64,000 nt of DNA, taken from contig NZ_CP099997.1 in NCBI RefSeq assembly GCF_024138145.1, positions 2,356,001 to 2,420,000 of the forward strand, given 5' to 3'. Source of the stretch: Natronosalvus halobius (GTDB taxonomy: Archaea > Halobacteriota > Halobacteria > Halobacteriales > Natrialbaceae). The translations under genes and the position numbers were made by a program. Position 1 is the stretch's first letter. Every line of letters starts with the position of its first letter. This document shows, one piece after another, positions 24,359 to 62,178 of the stretch. The notes under the pieces were generated by a model that was not told where the DNA came from, searched no databases, and saw only the letters and a list, made by a program, of their open reading frames with translations.

Positions 24359-26227
24359 ATGTGTGGCATCGTTGGTGCGTACGGTCGGGTCGACGAGGAG
24401 ACGCTCTCGTCGATGCTCGAGTGGATCGAACACCGAGGACCCGACGACGAAGGCCGGTACATCGACCGAGACGCAGGGGTAATGCTGGGGGCGCGACGCC
24501 TCGCCATCGTCGACCTCGAGGGCGGTTCCCAGCCAAAGTGGAACGAGGACGAGACGGTGGGCGTCGTCTTCAACGGCGAAATCTACAATCACGACGAGTT
24601 GCGAGCGTCCCTCCGACGGGACGGCCACCGCTTCGAGAGCCAGTCCGACACCGAGGTCCTGGTCCACCTCTGGGAGGAGTACGGCGACCGGATGGTCGAT
24701 CACCTCGAGGGCATGTTCGCCTTCTCCATCTGGGACGCTACGTCGCAAACGATCTTTCTGGCTCGCGACCGGATGGGCATCAAGCCGCTGTACTTCGGAC
24801 GAACGGACGTGGGGTACGTCTGGGGGAGCGAACTCCCTGCGCTCCTGATCGGCGGCGTGAACCGATCCATCGACCCCGCGGCCGTCTTCAATCACTTCTC
24901 GCTCGAGTACGCCCCCGGCGCGCAGACGCTGTTGCGGGACGTTCGGAAGGTGAAACCGGGACACACCGTTGAGATCGGACCCGACGGCGTTCGAGACCGC
25001 GAATACTGGAGTTTCCTCGACGTCGAAACCGGTAGCGCGGCGACGAGTTTCGCGGATGCCGCCGATCGACTGTCGACCCTACTCGAGCGATCCGTCGAAC
25101 AGCGCCTCATGGCGGACGTCCCCGTCGGGGCGTTCCTCTCGGGCGGCCTCGACTCCTCGGCGATCGTCGGCATCGCCTCGAACCTCAGGGACGAGCCACT
25201 CGACACCTACTCCGTCGCCTTCAGCGACGAGCGCTTCGACGAGAGCGCGGAGGCCCGCCTCGTCGCGGATCACTTCGGGACGAACCACCACGAAGTGCAC
25301 GTCGACCTCTCCTCAATGGACGTGTTCGACGACATGATTCGCCACCTCGGCGAGCCGACCGGACACCTGCAGATGCTACCACTCTTCTTGCTCTCCCAGC
25401 GCGCCCGGGAGGACGTGAAGGTCGCACTGGCCGGCGAGGGCGCCGACGAACTGTTCGCGGGGTACTCGCGGTACCAGCAGGCGCCCCAGTACAAGCGAAA
25501 GGTCGACTTCCTCCCGGGGTTCACCCACGACGTCGCCGGGGCCGTCGCCACGGTGGCGCCCGTCGGTTCCAAACACCTGCGGTACTACTCCTGGCTGAAG
25601 GACAACACCGAACTCGTCCTCCACAACACCTGCGGATTCATGCCGTTCCGTCCCGAGCCGGACGACTTCCTCACGACGGGCGAAACCACCGAGACGTCGG
25701 GCCTTCGCTCGAGCGTGAGCCAGGTGACGAGCCGGGTCGAGGACCCGACGCCGGAACAGCACATCTCGGCGTTCGAGACGAGCCAGACGCTCCCGAACTT
25801 CCACCTGTTCAAGGCCGACCACACGAGCATGGCCCAGTCACTCGAACTCCGAGTCCCGTTCCTATCCGCCGACATCGTGGAGTTCGCCCACTCGCTCCCG
25901 ATCGAGTACAAGGCGACCGACCAGGACGTCAAGCGCGTGCTCAAACGCGCCGTCGGTGACCTGCTCCCCAGGGAGATCCTCGAGCGCGAGAAGATGGGGA
26001 TGCGACCGCCCGTCGAGGACTGGTTCCGGGGAGACCACGACGCAATCGAACGGTGGTTCGACCGCGGGCGCCTCGAGCGGACGCCGTACGTCGACGCGGA
26101 CAGGGCCGCGGGGTTGCGGGATCGCCACCGTCGCGGCGAGGAGTCGGTTGGGCGAACGCTCTGGCTGATCCTCACCTACGTCGCGTGGTATCACACATTC
26201 ATCGACGAGAAGACGGCCATCGTCTGA
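24359..26227 (+). CDS. asnB: Asparagine synthetase (glutamine-hydrolysing)
   Basis: A 622-residue enzyme. The N-terminal class II glutaminase has the nucleophile Cys2 after Met removal (MCGIVGAYG), EHRGPDDEG and FNGEIYNHDEL. The synthetase domain has the PP-loop SGGLDSS (261-267), a PLFLLSQRAREDVKVALAGE segment, EGADELFAGYSRY and RVPFLSADIVEFAHSLP. It makes asparagine from aspartate, ATP and glutamine in the cytoplasm; some haloarchaeal paralogues act on other acids. The C-terminus (IDEKTAIV) and stop lie inside the first unit of a tandem repeat (26201-26352), so repeat growth has occurred right at the gene end. It is the first gene after the tRNA-Leu locus. Confidence 0.9.
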   Translation: MCGIVGAYGRVDEETLSSMLEWIEHRGPDDEGRYIDRDAGVMLGARRLAIVDLEGGSQPKWNEDETVGVVFNGEIYNHDELRASLRRDGHRFESQSDTEVLVHLWEEYGDRMVDHLEGMFAFSIWDATSQTIFLARDRMGIKPLYFGRTDVGYVWGSELPALLIGGVNRSIDPAAVFNHFSLEYAPGAQTLLRDVRKVKPGHTVEIGPDGVRDREYWSFLDVETGSAATSFADAADRLSTLLERSVEQRLMADVPVGAFLSGGLDSSAIVGIASNLRDEPLDTYSVAFSDERFDESAEARLVADHFGTNHHEVHVDLSSMDVFDDMIRHLGEPTGHLQMLPLFLLSQRAREDVKVALAGEGADELFAGYSRYQQAPQYKRKVDFLPGFTHDVAGAVATVAPVGSKHLRYYSWLKDNTELVLHNTCGFMPFRPEPDDFLTTGETTETSGLRSSVSQVTSRVEDPTPEQHISAFETSQTLPNFHLFKADHTSMAQSLELRVPFLSADIVEFAHSLPIEYKATDQDVKRVLKRAVGDLLPREILEREKMGMRPPVEDWFRGDHDAIERWFDRGRLERTPYVDADRAAGLRDRHRRGEESVGRTLWLILTYVAWYHTFIDEKTAIV

Positions 26228-26352
26228 TCCTCATCGACGAGAAGACGGCCATCGTCTGATCCTCATCGACAGGAGACGGCCATCGTCTGATCCTCATCGA
26301 CAGGAGACGGCCATCGTCTGATCCTCATCGACAGGAGACGGTCGGCGTCTGA
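26201..26352 (+). repeat. Five 31-32 bp tandem repeats covering the asnB stop
   Basis: Units start at 26201, 26233, 26265, 26296 and 26327. The first holds the last asnB codons and stop. The second repeats them exactly (ATCGACGAGAAGACGGCCAT then CGTCTGA). The third to fifth have GACAGGAGACGG, one base shorter, and the fifth is diverged. Each unit contains AGACG-GCCAT-CGTCT, which can form a 5-bp hairpin, so the array may act as a serial terminator. Confidence 0.9.
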
Positions 26353-36745: not shown

Positions 36746-37879
36746 TTACTCGTAGGTCGGCACGCGCGCGGATCGTTCCGATCCCTCCACGAACGGGAGC
36801 GCCGTCGATGTCGCTTCCACTTCGTTGCCGTCCACCCGGACCGAGAGGTCGGGGTCTTCGAGATCGTACTCGACAAGCGCGAGCGCGATCGGTTCCTCGA
36901 GGACGGGGCTGACCGCGGCGCGGGTGATCTCACCGACGGTGGCGTCGCCGTCGAAGACGGTCGCGCCGGAGGTCGGCAGGGCGTCGGTCGGCGATTCGGA
37001 TTCCGGGTTGGTATCGACGTCGGACTCGAGAACCAGCCCGATCAACTTGCGACTCGGCTGCCCCCGGTTCTCGACCCGGGAGACGACCTCCTGGCCGACG
37101 TAACACCCCTTCTCGAAGTCGAGCGCCAGGTCCAGGCCGAGCACGTTCGGAATCGTGCCCTCGAGTTCCGACTCGAACAGCGGGGTGCCGGCCTCGAGCG
37201 TGAGGGTGTCCCAGGTCCGGTAGCCGAACGGGGCCGCGTTGAGCCCCTGGATCGAGAGGACCTCGTAGACGTCGGGTGCGACGTCGACGCCGCAGACGAC
37301 CTCGTAGCTCTCCTCCCCGGCGAGGTCGTCGGTCCGGACGACGCTCACCCCGGCGTCGCCCATCGAGCCCCGGACGAACGTGAATCGATCCTCGGGAGCG
37401 GCGGCTCCGTTGAGTACGCTCGCAATCTTCTCGGTCGCGTTCGGACCGTGAACCCCGAAGATGGCGAACTCGTCGGTCGCCTCGCGGATCTCGACGTCCT
37501 GGATGAACACCTTCTCGGACCAGTCGGCGGCGACCTCGGCAGCGTGACCGGGCGGCGTGAAGAGGAGCAGGCGCTCGCCCGCATTGTAGACGTAGAGATC
37601 TGACTCGATTCGACCCTGGGGGTCGAGCAACAGGGCGTAGCACCCCTCGCCGTCGGCGCCCGGGACTCGGTTCGAGACGACGTTGTCGACGTACTCGAGG
37701 CGGTCGTCGCCCTCGACGACGATCACGTCGTACGCGGTCTCGATCAGCCCGACGCCGTTCCTGACGGCGCGGTGGGCGCGTTCGGGTCGCCCGTAGTGGT
37801 CGACGACCCGGCGCCCGCCGCGCTCGGTGAACGTCGCGCCGTGGTCTTCGTGGATCGACTCGATGGCGCTCGCGTGCAT
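36746..37879 (-). CDS. ygfZ: YgfZ/GcvT-like folate-binding protein
   Basis: A 377-residue protein with the aminomethyltransferase (GcvT) fold: VVDHYGRPERAHRAVRNGVG, the GcvT-like YVDNVVSNRVPGADGEGCYA, and GLNAAPFGYRTWDTLTLEAG. The key discriminator is KGCYVGQE at 257-264, the hallmark of YgfZ/IBA57 proteins, in which the Cys is needed for function. Those proteins use folate and support Fe-S enzyme maintenance, including some tRNA-modifying radical-SAM enzymes, rather than glycine cleavage. No gcvH or gcvP genes are nearby, which agrees. It is divergent from the methyltransferase gene. Confidence 0.85.
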   Translation of the reverse strand: MHASAIESIHEDHGATFTERGGRRVVDHYGRPERAHRAVRNGVGLIETAYDVIVVEGDDRLEYVDNVVSNRVPGADGEGCYALLLDPQGRIESDLYVYNAGERLLLFTPPGHAAEVAADWSEKVFIQDVEIREATDEFAIFGVHGPNATEKIASVLNGAAAPEDRFTFVRGSMGDAGVSVVRTDDLAGEESYEVVCGVDVAPDVYEVLSIQGLNAAPFGYRTWDTLTLEAGTPLFESELEGTIPNVLGLDLALDFEKGCYVGQEVVSRVENRGQPSRKLIGLVLESDVDTNPESESPTDALPTSGATVFDGDATVGEITRAAVSPVLEEPIALALVEYDLEDPDLSVRVDGNEVEATSTALPFVEGSERSARVPTYE

Positions 37880-37999: not shown

Positions 38000-38848
38000 A
38001 TGGCCGACAAGAACGCCGTTCGCCGGAGCTACGACGAGCTGGCCCCGATATACGCAGCCCAGCGGTCGGACGACGGCCCCGGGACGGGGGTCCTCGAGCG
38101 CTTCCTGGACTCGCTCGAAGACCCCAGACGCGTTCTCGACGCGGGGTGTGGCCAGGGAACCCCGGTGCTGTCGCGGCTGGCCGAGACGACGACCGCCGTC
38201 GGGCTCGACTTCTCGCGCGAGCAGCTGGGACTGGCGACGGGGAACGCGCCGGAAGCCGGGCACGTACAGGGTGACATGACGGCACTGCCGCTCGAGGAGT
38301 CGTCGTTCGACGCAGTCGTCGCCTACTGGTCGCTGATCCACGTCCCGCTCGACGAGCACCGGACAGTGGTCGAAGAGTTCAAGCGCGTCCTCCGACCGGG
38401 TGGACGACTCCTCCTGTGTGAGGGGACGAACGCCTGGACCGGCGAGAACCTGGACTGGCTCGAGAGTGGCGTCGAGATGTCCTGGGAGATTGCGGGTGCG
38501 GAGGCGACGCGAGGCCAGTTACAAGAAGCAGGGTTCGCGGTGCTCGAGGAGTGGGGCGTGCCGGAGGAGTTCGCCAACGACGGCGAAGGTGAGGGAGAGG
38601 TCGAAATCGAGGACGACAGCGAAGGGAAAGACGAGTACGGAGAGGACAGCGAAGGGAAAGACGAGTACGGAGAGGACAGCGAAGGGAAAGACGAGTACGG
38701 AGAGGACAACGACAGCGAAGGGAAAGACGAGTACGGAGAGGACAGCGAAGGGAAAGACGAGTACGGAGAGGACAACGACAGCGAAGGCGATGGAGAAGAC
38801 GAGGACCACCCGTGGACGTTCTTCGTCGCCCGACTCGAGCGGACCTGA
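38000..38848 (+). CDS. Class I SAM-dependent methyltransferase with internal acidic tandem repeat
   Basis: A 282-residue protein. The methyltransferase core has VLDAGCGQGTPV (about 45-56), VGLDFSREQL, GDMTALPLEESSFDAVVAYW and LRPGGRLLLCEGT. After GVPEEFAND (about residue 194) an acidic stretch begins, with five copies of the ten-residue unit DSEGKDEYGE, two Asp-Asn spacers and a decayed copy. The domain then closes with HPWTFFVARLERT, the usual final strand. The repeat thus sits in the loop before the last beta strand. The ATG at 38000 gives the standard N-terminus (DKNAVRRSYDELAPIY). The substrate is unknown; it resembles UbiE/Methyltransf_11 proteins. Confidence 0.85.
   Translation: MADKNAVRRSYDELAPIYAAQRSDDGPGTGVLERFLDSLEDPRRVLDAGCGQGTPVLSRLAETTTAVGLDFSREQLGLATGNAPEAGHVQGDMTALPLEESSFDAVVAYWSLIHVPLDEHRTVVEEFKRVLRPGGRLLLCEGTNAWTGENLDWLESGVEMSWEIAGAEATRGQLQEAGFAVLEEWGVPEEFANDGEGEGEVEIEDDSEGKDEYGEDSEGKDEYGEDSEGKDEYGEDNDSEGKDEYGEDSEGKDEYGEDNDSEGDGEDEDHPWTFFVARLERT
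38615..38776 (+). repeat. 30-bp in-frame tandem repeats within methyltransferase
   Basis: Five identical 30-base units starting GACAGCGAAGGGAAAGAC lie at 38615, 38645, 38675, 38711 and 38741. A six-base GACAAC spacer follows the third and the fifth unit, and a partial sixth unit starts at 38777. Perfect identity at the DNA level indicates recent expansion. The unit length keeps the frame. Confidence 0.95.
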
Positions 38849-39044
38849 TCGCCAGCCGGTCGGCTGATGCTCGCGGCGTCGTTCGACCCGAAACAGTCAC
38901 CGGAATGTCCAGTCCGCGTAACCGGAACGCTCCCGACCGAAAACACCAGTCGATGCCGTTTTTAGCTGACTGCAGCAGTTGGCTCATTCGAAATTCTTCT
39001 CTAATTACCTGTTAGTAATCATACTATCTACCGACGAATGGAGT

Positions 39045-40466
39045 ATGCCAGACTGGAATCGAAGATCCGTATTGGCAGCTGGTGGAACGCTCGTCGCTGG
39101 AAGTGTGCTCGCTACGGCAGGAGTGACATCGGAGGGGATGGCCGAAGCCGACCTCGAAGAACCGACCGGCTGGTCGTCCTCCGGTGGGAACCCGGGAAAC
39201 GCCAGATACCTGCCTGTGGACGGCGAGTTCCCGGAACCGGAGCGAGTCGCCTGGGAGTACGACCAGGGCGGAGACATCGCCGTCGTGGACGGCCGTGTGT
39301 ACGTTTGCACCACCGTCTCCGAGGGGCTCCCCGAAGTTCACGCCCTGGACGCCGCGGACGGCTCCGTCCAGTGGGTGAGCGAGGAACTACCCGTCGACGA
39401 GACGCCCGCGGTGGCCGGCGATACCGTCTACGTCGGCGGCGAACAGTTGTCGGCGCTCGACGCCGCGGACGGCTCGGTCCGCTGGACGCGCGAGTTCGAG
39501 GTCGACGACCCGACCGTCTCGAGTCCGACGGTCATCTACGGACGCGTGTACACCGTCGCGAACGGAACGCTCTACGCGCTCGACCCGGCGGACGGCTCGA
39601 CCGACTGGAAGCGCGAGACCGCCGAAATCCCCGACGAGGAGGAGGAACCCCGTCCGCTCGAGACGGAGCCGGTCGCCGTCGCGGGTGAACAGGTGTACGC
39701 GGTAACTGCCGACAAAGAGAAAGTGGCGGCGTTCGACGCGGCCACTGGCGAGACGGCGTGGACGTCGTCTACTGGCGAGACGATCCGCGGGCCGGCCACG
39801 GCGACAGAACAGGCGGTGTATATCCGATCTCACGCAGGGTACGAGAGTCTGGCGTTCGACCCGGAAACCGGGGAGACGAGTAAAATCAAGGGATGGGGGC
39901 CGGCCGCCGCGACCGGTGAGATCAGAGCCTCCTACGACGAAATGGGAGTGTACGTGAGTCACCTGGAACGTGGGTGGAACGATATGCGGGGTACCAGCAG
40001 GGAGTACGGAGACGGCGGGAGCGTGACGATCATCGGTGACACGCTCGTCGTCACGACCGCGACGATATGGGGGCAGGGGGAAACCGCATACGGATTCGAC
40101 CTCGAGGACGGCACGAGGCGATGGGACGTGCCGTCCAAAGAGGACGGCATCGACGTGTACAAAGTACAGGCGGTCGACGAGGAGACGCTGTACGATTACG
40201 GACGCGATCTACCACAGCCAGGAGGCGACCGAATCCGGGCGTTGCGCCCGGCCGAAACGGACGAGGGGGATGACGACGCTGGGGACGACCGAGACCGCGA
40301 AGACGAGGGTGAGGACGGGGATCAGAACGAAGACGACAACGACGAATCGGAAACTGATTCCGGGGACGGTCGCGAGGACGGATCGTCCGGCGACGACCCC
40401 GATGGCGGAGACGGTGCGGACGACAGTGTGGAAGACGACGCACCCGACGAAGACGAGGTCTGCTGA
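39045..40466 (+). CDS. Exported PQQ-like beta-propeller repeat protein
   Basis: A 473-residue protein. A Tat signal (NRRSVLAAGGTLVAGSVLAT) starts the chain at the ATG 39045, preferred over an upstream ATG that lacks this context. PQQ-type blades recur as ALDAADGSVQWVSE, ALDAADGSVRWTRE, ALDPADGSTDWKRE, AFDAATGETAWTSS and GFDLEDGTRRWDVP, each a beta-propeller strand set. The C-terminal about 65 residues are strongly acidic with Asp/Glu/Gly and end in Cys. No PQQ-binding catalytic residues can be assigned, so it is probably a structural or BamB-like propeller outside the membrane. AT-rich sequence at about 38995-39030 holds its probable promoter. Confidence 0.85.
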   Translation: MPDWNRRSVLAAGGTLVAGSVLATAGVTSEGMAEADLEEPTGWSSSGGNPGNARYLPVDGEFPEPERVAWEYDQGGDIAVVDGRVYVCTTVSEGLPEVHALDAADGSVQWVSEELPVDETPAVAGDTVYVGGEQLSALDAADGSVRWTREFEVDDPTVSSPTVIYGRVYTVANGTLYALDPADGSTDWKRETAEIPDEEEEPRPLETEPVAVAGEQVYAVTADKEKVAAFDAATGETAWTSSTGETIRGPATATEQAVYIRSHAGYESLAFDPETGETSKIKGWGPAAATGEIRASYDEMGVYVSHLERGWNDMRGTSREYGDGGSVTIIGDTLVVTTATIWGQGETAYGFDLEDGTRRWDVPSKEDGIDVYKVQAVDEETLYDYGRDLPQPGGDRIRALRPAETDEGDDDAGDDRDREDEGEDGDQNEDDNDESETDSGDGREDGSSGDDPDGGDGADDSVEDDAPDEDEVC

Positions 40467-40477
40467 CGCTCCGAGCG

Positions 40478-42166
40478 TCAGCTCGACTCGAGCCCCGCGT
40501 CGTGGACTACGGCCCCGTCGACGAGCGTCATCGCGACGTCGATCTCGTCGATTTGCTCCGGCCGATCCCACGGTGACGCCTCGAGAACCGTGATATCCGC
40601 CTTTTTGCTGACCTCGAGCGTCCCCAGTCGGCCCTCGTCGAACCCGGCGTAGGCTGCGCCCGCGGTGTACGCCCGCAGCGCTGCCGTTACCGAGAGCCGC
40701 TGGGCCTCGACGGGCGCGTTCACCGCGTGGTGAACCCCGAGTAGCGGGTCGAGGGGCATGCAGTCCGAACCGAACGCCAGCGGAACGCCCGCCTCGAGCA
40801 TCGACCGGTAGCGGTTCGTCCGCTCGCGGCGCTCGACGCCGAGGCGCTGGTCGTAGAGGCCACCCTCGCCCGCCCACTGGAGGAAGTTCGGCTGGACGGA
40901 GGCGACGATTCCCGCCTCGGCCATCCGCTCGAGGTGGTCGTCGGTCGCGAGTTCGACGTGCTCGACGCGGTGGCGGGCCGACCCGCCGTTGGCGGTTGCC
41001 TCGAACGCCGAAATCGTCTCTTCGATGGCTTCGTCGCCGATGGCGTGGACGGTGAGCTGGTAGTCGCCCTCAGCAGTGGCTTTCGCGGCGATTTCCTCGA
41101 GTTCGTCGGGGTCGACGACCCACTGGCCGCGGCCCGCTCCGGGGTCGTCGCGGTTGCTGTCGCCGTTATCGTCACCATCGCTGTCGCCGTTACCGACACC
41201 GCCGCCGCCGCCGTTACCGTCATCGCGGCTGTCGCCCCCATCCCCCGGCAGATCCGCGTACGGCTCGAACAACTTCGCCGTCCGGCCACCGAAACTCCCG
41301 TCGGTGAACGACTTGATCCCGCCCATCTCTACGAATTCGCTCCCGCCGTTCGTCGCGAGGCCCGCGTCCAGGACGCTCTCGAGGTGGTCGCTCCAGTAAT
41401 CCAGTCGCACCCGGCAGGTCAGTTCGCCCGCAGCCTCGAGGTCCCGGTACACCCGCGGGGCGTGGGACTGGCGAACCTTGTCGTGGACGCTGGTTACGCC
41501 CAGCACGTTCGCGTGTTCGAGGGCGGCGATGACGAGGTCCCGTGTCTCCGCGTAGTCGGGTTCGATGGCGTCCCAGACGGCCTCGGTCGCTTCCTCGACC
41601 ACGACACCGGTCGGGTCGTCGCCCTCGGTTTCGACGTCGTCGTCCGGCATCGACCCGGTCAGACGCTCGAGCGCGACCGAGTTCAGCGAGGCGGTGTGCA
41701 TGTCGACGCGCATCGCGACGACGGGGCGGTCCTCGCTGACGGCATCCAGGTCCGATGCGGAGAGGTACCGGTTCTCGGGCCACTCGCTCTCGTCGTAGCC
41801 GAACCCGAGGAGCCACTCTCGGTCGCTCGCGTCGCCGGCGTGAGTCGCGAGCGCGTCGAGGGCGCCCTCGAGCGTCTCGGCCGCGGAGAGGTCGGCGTGG
41901 ACCAGGTACTGCCCCAGATTCTCTACGTGCGTGTGCGCGTCGATGAATCCCGGAAGAACGGGCCGGCCCTCGCAGTCGATCACGTTGGTTTCGACGCCCT
42001 CCAGGAAGCGGACCTCGTACTCGCGGCCGACGTGGACGATCTCGCCGTCGCGGATCGCCAGCGCCTCCGTCGGATTGGGTTCGGGAGCGTCGGGGTCGGT
42101 CCCGTCCACGTCCGCCAGCGAGTAGACGCGGGCGTCGACGAGCAGCGTGTCGGCGGCTTCGGTCAT
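40478..42166 (-). CDS. YtcJ-like metal-dependent amidohydrolase
   Basis: A 562-residue enzyme. The N-terminal beta domain (TLLVDARVYSLADVDG) leads to the metal motif PGFIDAHTHVENLGQYLVHA, followed by EWLLGFGYDESEWPENRYLS, MGGIKSFTDGSFGGRTAKLF, the second His site LTVHAIGDEAIEETISAFEA, RVEHVELATDDHLERMAEAG and FGSDCMPLDPLLGVHHAVNA. This is the Amidohydro_3 (YtcJ/LAF3) group, with unknown natural substrates. An unusual Gly/Asp/Asn-rich run of about 45 residues (encoded about 41115-41250) is inserted in the barrel between YADLP and WVVDPDELEE. The ATG at 42166 is chosen over one nine codons upstream. Confidence 0.85.
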   Translation of the reverse strand: MTEAADTLLVDARVYSLADVDGTDPDAPEPNPTEALAIRDGEIVHVGREYEVRFLEGVETNVIDCEGRPVLPGFIDAHTHVENLGQYLVHADLSAAETLEGALDALATHAGDASDREWLLGFGYDESEWPENRYLSASDLDAVSEDRPVVAMRVDMHTASLNSVALERLTGSMPDDDVETEGDDPTGVVVEEATEAVWDAIEPDYAETRDLVIAALEHANVLGVTSVHDKVRQSHAPRVYRDLEAAGELTCRVRLDYWSDHLESVLDAGLATNGGSEFVEMGGIKSFTDGSFGGRTAKLFEPYADLPGDGGDSRDDGNGGGGGVGNGDSDGDDNGDSNRDDPGAGRGQWVVDPDELEEIAAKATAEGDYQLTVHAIGDEAIEETISAFEATANGGSARHRVEHVELATDDHLERMAEAGIVASVQPNFLQWAGEGGLYDQRLGVERRERTNRYRSMLEAGVPLAFGSDCMPLDPLLGVHHAVNAPVEAQRLSVTAALRAYTAGAAYAGFDEGRLGTLEVSKKADITVLEASPWDRPEQIDEIDVAMTLVDGAVVHDAGLESS

Positions 42167-42315
42167 GTTCGAGTGCGCGCACGGAGAGGGCAAAACGGTT
42201 GGGAAAGCGGGTGACCTCGTCGCAAAACGGTTGGAAAAGCGGACGACCGCGTCGTGACCAGCGGGCGGGTCAGAGGAGGCGGGGTATTTTGTGTAAGAAG
42301 TAGAATATCTTACCC

Positions 42316-61050: not shown

Positions 61051-62178
61051 ATGCAACGACGGACGTTTCTCACGACAGCAGGTGTAGGGGTAACGGCGGG
61101 ACTGGCTGGTTGTCTGGTCGACGACGGCAACGGCGGCAACGGCGGCAACGGCGGCAACGGTGGGAACGGGAACGGGAACGACACCGCCGACGGCAACGGC
61201 AACGGCGGCGCCGGATCCGACATCACCGTCGGCATTATCTACTCGACCGGTGGCCTCGGTGACGACTCGTTCAACGACATGGCCAACGCCGGCATCGAGC
61301 GAGCGGTAGAGGACTTCGGCATCTCCTACAAGGACGCCGAACCCGACGCCCCCGCCGACATGAACCAGATGCAGCGGAACTTCGCGGGCGACGAAGAAAT
61401 CGACCTCGTCTGCTGTATCGGCTTCGACCACGCGACCGACCTCGAGGAGAACGCCGCGGAGTTCAGCGACCAGCAGTTCGTGCTCGTCGACGCGGTCGTC
61501 GAGGCTGACAACGTCGCCAACTACACGTTCCGGGAACACGAGGGGTCCTTCCAGGTCGGTCACCTCGCTGGCCTGTTGACGACGACCGACTACGCCCACG
61601 GCGGTGGCGAGACGAACACCGACGAGACCGTCGTCGGCTTCGTCGGCGGCCAGGAGACCGCCCTCATCGATCGATTCGAGGCGGGCTACATCGCAGGCGT
61701 TCGCCACGCCGACGACAGCATCGAGACGCCATCGGCGTACGCCGGAAGCTGGAACGACCCGTCCCGAGGCCAGGAGATCGCCAGCGGAATGTACGACGAC
61801 GGCGCGGACGTCGTCTACCACGCCGCGGGCGGCACCGGTGGCGGCGTCTTCCAGGCCGCCCAATCGGCCGGTCGATTCGCCATCGGCGTCGACGACGACC
61901 AGTCGATCAGCGCCGAGGACTTCAGCGACGTGATCGTCGCGAGCATGGTCAAGCGCGTCGACAACGCCGTCTACGACTCGGTCGAGGCCGTCGTCAACGA
62001 CGAGTTCGAGAGCGGCATGAACGACCTGGGCCTCGACGACGACGGCAGCGTGAGCGCAACCATCGGCCAGGACTTCGAGGGCGAACTCCCCGAGGACATC
62101 GTCGACGCGCTCGAGGAGTCCCGGCAGGCGATCATCGACGGTGAAATCGACGTGCCGGACACCACCGACGACCTCTAG
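61051..62178 (+). CDS. BMP-family nucleoside-binding lipoprotein
   Basis: A 375-residue exported protein. Twin-arginine signal RRTFLTTAGVGVTAGLAG is followed by lipobox Cys21, then a Gly/Asn-rich linker (26-55). The BMP domain has IIYSTGGLGDDSFNDMANAG, CCIGFDHATDLEENAAEF, ANYTFREHEGSFQVGHLAGL, GFVGGQETALIDRFEAGYIA, and VVYHAAGGTGGGVFQAAQSA. PnrA/BmpA relatives bind purine nucleosides. The genes for ATPase (5 bp gap) and permease follow, so this is the first gene of a nucleoside importer operon. The nucleoside hydrolase upstream supports the substrate. Confidence 0.92.
   Translation: MQRRTFLTTAGVGVTAGLAGCLVDDGNGGNGGNGGNGGNGNGNDTADGNGNGGAGSDITVGIIYSTGGLGDDSFNDMANAGIERAVEDFGISYKDAEPDAPADMNQMQRNFAGDEEIDLVCCIGFDHATDLEENAAEFSDQQFVLVDAVVEADNVANYTFREHEGSFQVGHLAGLLTTTDYAHGGGETNTDETVVGFVGGQETALIDRFEAGYIAGVRHADDSIETPSAYAGSWNDPSRGQEIASGMYDDGADVVYHAAGGTGGGVFQAAQSAGRFAIGVDDDQSISAEDFSDVIVASMVKRVDNAVYDSVEAVVNDEFESGMNDLGLDDDGSVSATIGQDFEGELPEDIVDALEESRQAIIDGEIDVPDTTDDL

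Follow-up and report, generated by a model that had tools for sequence, protein, structure and literature searches.

Acidic low-complexity stretches and coding repeats have been described in the proteins of Halobacteria from several directions, and the reports are used here for the portions of their text that were accessible. Natrialba magadii is given as the archaeon richest in low-complexity regions, and in the other halobacteria analysed 34% of the residues in such regions are acidic (PMC6821194). Among short-repeat satellites of Halobacteria, a coding location with a period that is a multiple of three apparently predominates (PMC6749651). Strains of Haloquadratum walsbyi differ by in-frame 'polyrepeat' indels, and short direct repeats mediate deletions there (PMC3119063). 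Furthermore, an acidic insertion peptide near the active site of the Halobacterium salinarum cysteinyl-tRNA synthetase (CysRS) is reported to raise catalytic turnover (PMC3787623).

The locus compared here is an array of 30-bp units in a predicted methyltransferase gene of Natronosalvus halobius, located in a window of 64,000 nucleotides (assembly GCF_024138145.1, contig NZ_CP099997.1, positions 2,356,001 to 2,420,000, forward strand). It shares with the described systems, respectively, an acidic low-complexity stretch (PMC6821194), a tandem repeat within a gene at a period that is a multiple of three (PMC6749651), an in-gene copy number that differs while the frame is conserved (PMC3119063), and an acidic insert in a haloarchaeal enzyme (PMC3787623). 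As far as the accessible text of these reports goes, it differs from the low-complexity regions in consisting of DNA-identical 10-residue units whose growth can be located by comparing sister species (PMC6821194), and from the satellites in being one array of one enzyme, of which a congener has a single unit (PMC6749651). The H. walsbyi polyrepeats come from a comparison of strains and include dipeptide repeats, whereas the present array comes from a comparison of species and has a 10-residue unit (PMC3119063); the CysRS insert has a reported effect on turnover, whereas the methyltransferase is known from its sequence and most of its orthologues are without a long insert (PMC3787623). A search of the open-licence literature (haloarchaeal repeats, acidic inserts, minisatellites and slippage) returned, among the matches listed, no paper that names either the enzyme or the array. 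The array exemplifies a phenomenon already known in Halobacteria, that of coding repeats and acidic inserts, and is not a new kind of system.

Structure of the array and its host gene

Exact matching located five copies of GACAGCGAAGGGAAAGACGAGTACGGAGAG, starting at 38615, 38645, 38675, 38711 and 38741 in the forward-strand frame of the ORF that begins at 38000, each encoding DSEGKDEYGE and all identical at every base (Table 1). This confirmed the five in-frame, DNA-identical 30-bp units and the two GACAAC spacers listed by the first-pass annotation, whose boundaries (38615-38776) were also exact, the end being that of the second GACAAC. With U for DSEGKDEYGE, the order is U-U-U-DN-U-U-DN-DSEGDGEDED within the acidic stretch of residues 186-271; GACAAC thus follows units 3 and 5, and the second GACAAC is followed by a partial unit, not by a sixth one. 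The lengths of unit and spacer in the array are both multiples of three. A degenerate first copy in the 12-residue block 5′ of the array (protein 194-205) was considered and rejected, as only 12 of 24 bases match over the eight codons compared to the unit (shuffle P 0.56); this block is not explained by the duplication path proposed below and counts against it.

Table 1. Coordinates, within the window, of the methyltransferase gene and of the parts of its array
Feature	Position	Strand	Basis
Predicted class I SAM-dependent methyltransferase gene, 282 aa	38000..38848	+	ORF; Pfam Methyltransf_11, E 4.4e-20
Acidic loop beta6-beta7, 86 residues, protein 186-271	38555..38812	+	AlphaFold; 43/86 D/E
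Units 1-3, head-to-tail exact 30-bp copies	38615..38704	+	Repeat search, exact matching
GACAAC (Asp-Asn) separating units 3 and 4	38705..38710	+	
Units 4-5, two exact 30-bp copies	38711..38770	+	Exact matching
GACAACGACAGCGAAGG, GACAAC plus beginning of partial unit (DSEGDGEDED)	38771..38787	+	Second copy at 38705
Final beta strand WTFFVARL, residues 272-279	38813..38836	+	AlphaFold, alignment

The TRF scores of the array, 267 at a 30-bp period and 304 at a 66-bp period, are the two highest in the window. The longest exact direct repeat of the loop measures 77 bp, whereas 1,000 codon shuffles of the same loop never exceeded 20 bp, and identity at the DNA level would have a probability of about 7e-9 if five identical peptides had picked their codons independently (codon usage taken from five stretches of the window). 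The copies were therefore made by DNA duplication and not by convergence on a peptide. As each unit has only two four-fold (Gly) sites, the identity of the five copies sets a weak upper limit on their age and is no clock. In its own genome the exact unit was found five times on the forward strand and not on the reverse, always at this array (backwards control, 0); elsewhere in the family (124 genomes), the sole close DNA match lies in the same gene of a congener (G002). Six weaker matches at other places in those 124 genomes (E 4e-7 to 8e-4) were rejected as further copies: L047 falls in a different Asp-rich protein and L042 in a serine-rich frame (strand inspected), and no acidic repeat protein was seen in the forward-strand frames inspected at L043-L046. 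These matches outside the methyltransferase gene are treated as products of chance or composition.

Other repeats occur in the window. A 31-bp unit repeated 4.9 times at 26199-26352 has a period that, unlike that of the methyltransferase array, is not a multiple of three; its first copy encodes the C-terminal end of the 24359-26227 (+) protein, which we take to be asparagine-synthase-like, and the remainder lies past the stop codon, so that frame is irrelevant there, in contrast to the methyltransferase array. A 38-bp unit is repeated 2.8 times at 1512-1616 (97% matches). An Asn/Gly repeat of AACGGCGGC units at 61121-61206 comes soon after a stretch that we presume to be lipobox-like, and is perhaps a lipoprotein spacer.

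The product of 38000-38848 is a predicted class I SAM-dependent methyltransferase. The methyltransferase identity proposed earlier was borne out by the Pfam profile Methyltransf_11, which matches residues 46-138 at 72.5 bits (gathering score 21.2), and fold comparison by VIA-align gave 3e23 with SAM as the top Z among solved methyltransferases (Z 21.6, rmsd 2.5, 193 residues), the alignments covering the greater part of the model. A sequence search of solved structures returned generic methyltransferases only, and among the NCBIfam matches listed (25 of 32) every model was far under its cut-off, the best at 69.4 bits versus 155. Orthologues of the core at E≤1e-50 were found in 53 of 125 family genomes and in 110 of 391 class genomes sampled. 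Of 189 core codons compared between the window and G002, 29 show a synonymous change and 25 an amino-acid change, which indicates that the gene is under constraint, though not a tight one. G002 and a second congener, G004, have the same gene order, except that no PQQ-repeat gene was found in a 19-kb stretch of G004. With nine window proteins as queries near seven distant orthologues (L034-L040), only the methyltransferase was found; since the neighbours are not kept beside these orthologues, gene context points to no substrate. An opposite-strand gene over the array was rejected, as the minus frames gave third-position GC signals of 0.05 and -0.27 versus 0.32 for the gene.

In an AlphaFold model (mean pLDDT 69.9; input alignment of eight rows, the window protein plus seven orthologues), the loop is flanked by strands 179-187 and 272-279. 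The array therefore sits between the last two strands, in agreement with its earlier placement before the last beta strand of the fold. In class I methyltransferases the beta6-beta7 turn faces the substrate side. The order of helices and strands is identical in the model of a Haloferax larsenii orthologue (likewise eight sequences; mean pLDDT 79.0), which has a 23-residue loop and a short low-confidence turn at the site of the array, so that the order is the same with the long insert present or absent. The acidity ascribed to the loop in the first-pass annotation was upheld, half of its residues being Asp or Glu. The disorder ascribed to it fits the coil in which it is modelled (pLDDT about 42-54 in blocks of ten), a low confidence that is suggestive of disorder and not proof; disorder predictors are reported to overpredict for halophile proteins (PMC6384707, accessible text).

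Loop length and unit number among relatives

The loop was surveyed at 114 loci, which give 109 distinct proteins, with 15 weaker places of the class search left out. Its length has a median of 13 residues (quartiles 12 and 19) and is 7-13 residues in 73 proteins, at least 19 in 31 and at least 20 in 27; the 86 residues of the window protein are the longest, followed by 48 and 45. The window protein thus carries an Asp/Glu-rich insert that is lacking in most relatives, and the short loops show that such an insert is not required by the fold. Moreover, the loop is the most length-variable place in the protein (s.d. 10.4 residues, versus 2.3 for the next, after residue 62), and the loops of at least 19 residues are 26-60% acidic.

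Loop sequence and length vary even inside the genus, where a close orthologue is present in six of eight genomes (that of the window counted) and the loops are 86 (window), 33 (G002), 27 (G004), 27, 27 and 28 residues long. The units number five in the window, one (near-identical) in G002 and none in G004, with cores about 87-88% identical. The single G002 unit is GDGEGKDEYGEDN-like in its setting, and the unit plus DN differs from that of the window at 1 of 36 bases; four-fold sites of the core differ between the two species at 18 of 103 (17-18%). The G002 unit is bracketed by a direct repeat, GACAACGACGGCGAAGG and GACAACGGCAGCGAAGG, alike at 15 of 17 bases and 36 bp apart, which was equalled in 11 of 500 codon shuffles; its downstream member differs from GACAACGACAGCGAAGG by one base. 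The one-unit state of G002 would be ancestral, judged from these sequences. G002 might instead have lost units from a longer array, but since the unit was seen in no other surveyed loop listed, a gain in the lineage of the window is the simpler account. These counts support recent growth in one lineage, as had been proposed from the identity of the copies, and the orthologues without the repeat that had been recommended for comparison include G004 and the many with turns of 7-13 residues. The length variation that the first-pass annotation expected from strain to strain is shown here between species, and an invariant copy number across distant strains, which it named as a refuting observation, is contradicted at that level.

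Length changes are also found elsewhere. In Haloferax the loops of L034, L037 and L038 have 48, 30 and 23 residues, with L034 and L037 95% and 92% identical to L038; the longest exact repeat in the L034 loop is 12 bp (shuffle p 0.08). As these changes come without long exact repeats, slippage is not shown for each of them. Slippage behind all long loops was rejected as a general account, only 7 of the 31 loops of at least 19 residues having a longest exact repeat at shuffle p<0.05, uncorrected. Beside the methyltransferase gene, a PQQ-repeat (BamB-like) protein (38979-40466) has an acidic C-terminal tail with Cys at its end and 14 more residues than in G002, and an amidohydrolase (Amidohydro_3; 40478-42193) has, near 41156-41236, a Gly/Asp-rich insert that exceeds its G002 counterpart by about 28 residues and its G004 counterpart by about 14. 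On the other side, the adjoining GcvT/YgfZ-like gene (36746-37879) shows a 10-column length difference near column 316 of a three-species alignment. Taken together, the PQQ-repeat protein, the amidohydrolase and the Haloferax orthologues indicate that these genomes habitually carry acidic stretches whose length varies, in line with the published work cited above.

Explanations for the array

Very probably, a tolerated low-complexity acidic loop expanded recently and in frame by tandem duplication, in this lineage alone, to give the array. The ancestral loop would have resembled that of G002, with a single KDEYGE-type unit ahead of Asp-Asn and a DSEG-like tail, and the imperfect direct repeats around the unit would have promoted DNA slippage or out-of-register recombination. 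Slippage on a repeat pair of the G002 type would duplicate the unit together with GACAAC, which could account for the spacers. In a unit-level search, as few as three duplications lead from U-DN to U-U-U-DN-U-U-DN, a parsimony count and not an observed history. Such growth may be tolerated because the beta6-beta7 turn is probably exposed, judging from the models, and because its length, judging from orthologues, is not fixed by the fold. Nothing more would then have been asked of selection than an intact frame and the absence of hydrophobic sequence, and in molar salt the extra negative charge may do no harm or bring a slight benefit. Against this explanation stand the Tyr and the Lys found once in every unit, which charge selection alone would not predict. 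A specific function of the additional copies is unlikely, though a mild function of the loop is conceivable.

A stronger role, in which the loop works as an acidic insert of tunable length and alters the enzyme in salt through solubility, active-site flexibility or substrate access, appears improbable. The substrate-side position of the turn and the acidity of the 31 longer loops would suit it, but short turns are the rule among orthologues, the rest of the protein is acidic in itself (pI 4.5), and neither sequence nor length of the loop is conserved within the genus. The CysRS insertion, with its reported effect on turnover (PMC3787623, accessible text), offers a precedent for it, and a solubility or charge role would fit published halophile biology. 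The adjustment of partner binding suggested by the first-pass annotation found no supporting evidence. More improbable still is an assembly artefact in the exact copy number, with a real but shorter array beneath it: assembly errors at tandem repeats have been reported (PMC6868369, accessible text), but this array spans about 160 bp in an assembly of 3 contigs, its 66-bp higher-order pattern and two GACAAC copies provide internal landmarks, and one unit stands at the same site in G002. It is scarcely credible that the array acts at the level of DNA or RNA, in regulation or recombination for example, and not as protein sequence. The unit is indeed purine-rich (83% of the coding strand versus 55% in the core); its length and that of the spacer are nonetheless divisible by three, the genome has the exact unit in this gene only, its one close match among the 124 family genomes is in the same gene, and a strong third-position GC signal over the array is seen in the coding frame only.

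A possible link between acidic coding DNA and the growth of loops

A wider idea, which we regard as doubtful at present, is that selection for acidic residues makes haloarchaeal coding DNA slip-prone, since GAC, GAG and GAA codons give dense in-frame direct repeats, so that acidic loops grow and shrink as length-tunable modules, the methyltransferase having been caught mid-process. Repeat density was compared with acidity in 116 reading frames from nine sequences, the methyltransferase's own window frame being left out. Codon-shuffled 30-codon windows with at least 40% Asp plus Glu had a mean of 0.78 in-frame repeats of at least 8 bp, versus 0.08-0.14 in those under 30%, or about six to nine times as many; the observed, unshuffled values for in-frame 8-bp repeats were 1.21 versus 0.13-0.21. 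Acidic coding DNA may thus be slip-prone through composition alone. As only 14 of 1,452 windows had at least 40% Asp plus Glu, and Gly/Asn-rich windows were also high, the idea is to be taken as a lead.

The methyltransferase array is a clean case, in that a one-unit state bracketed by direct repeats and a five-unit state of the same loop can be read in sister species, in an enzyme that is otherwise conserved. It is therefore a handy test bed for the origin of acidic low-complexity regions in halophiles and for the relation between the length of an acidic loop and its enzyme in high salt.
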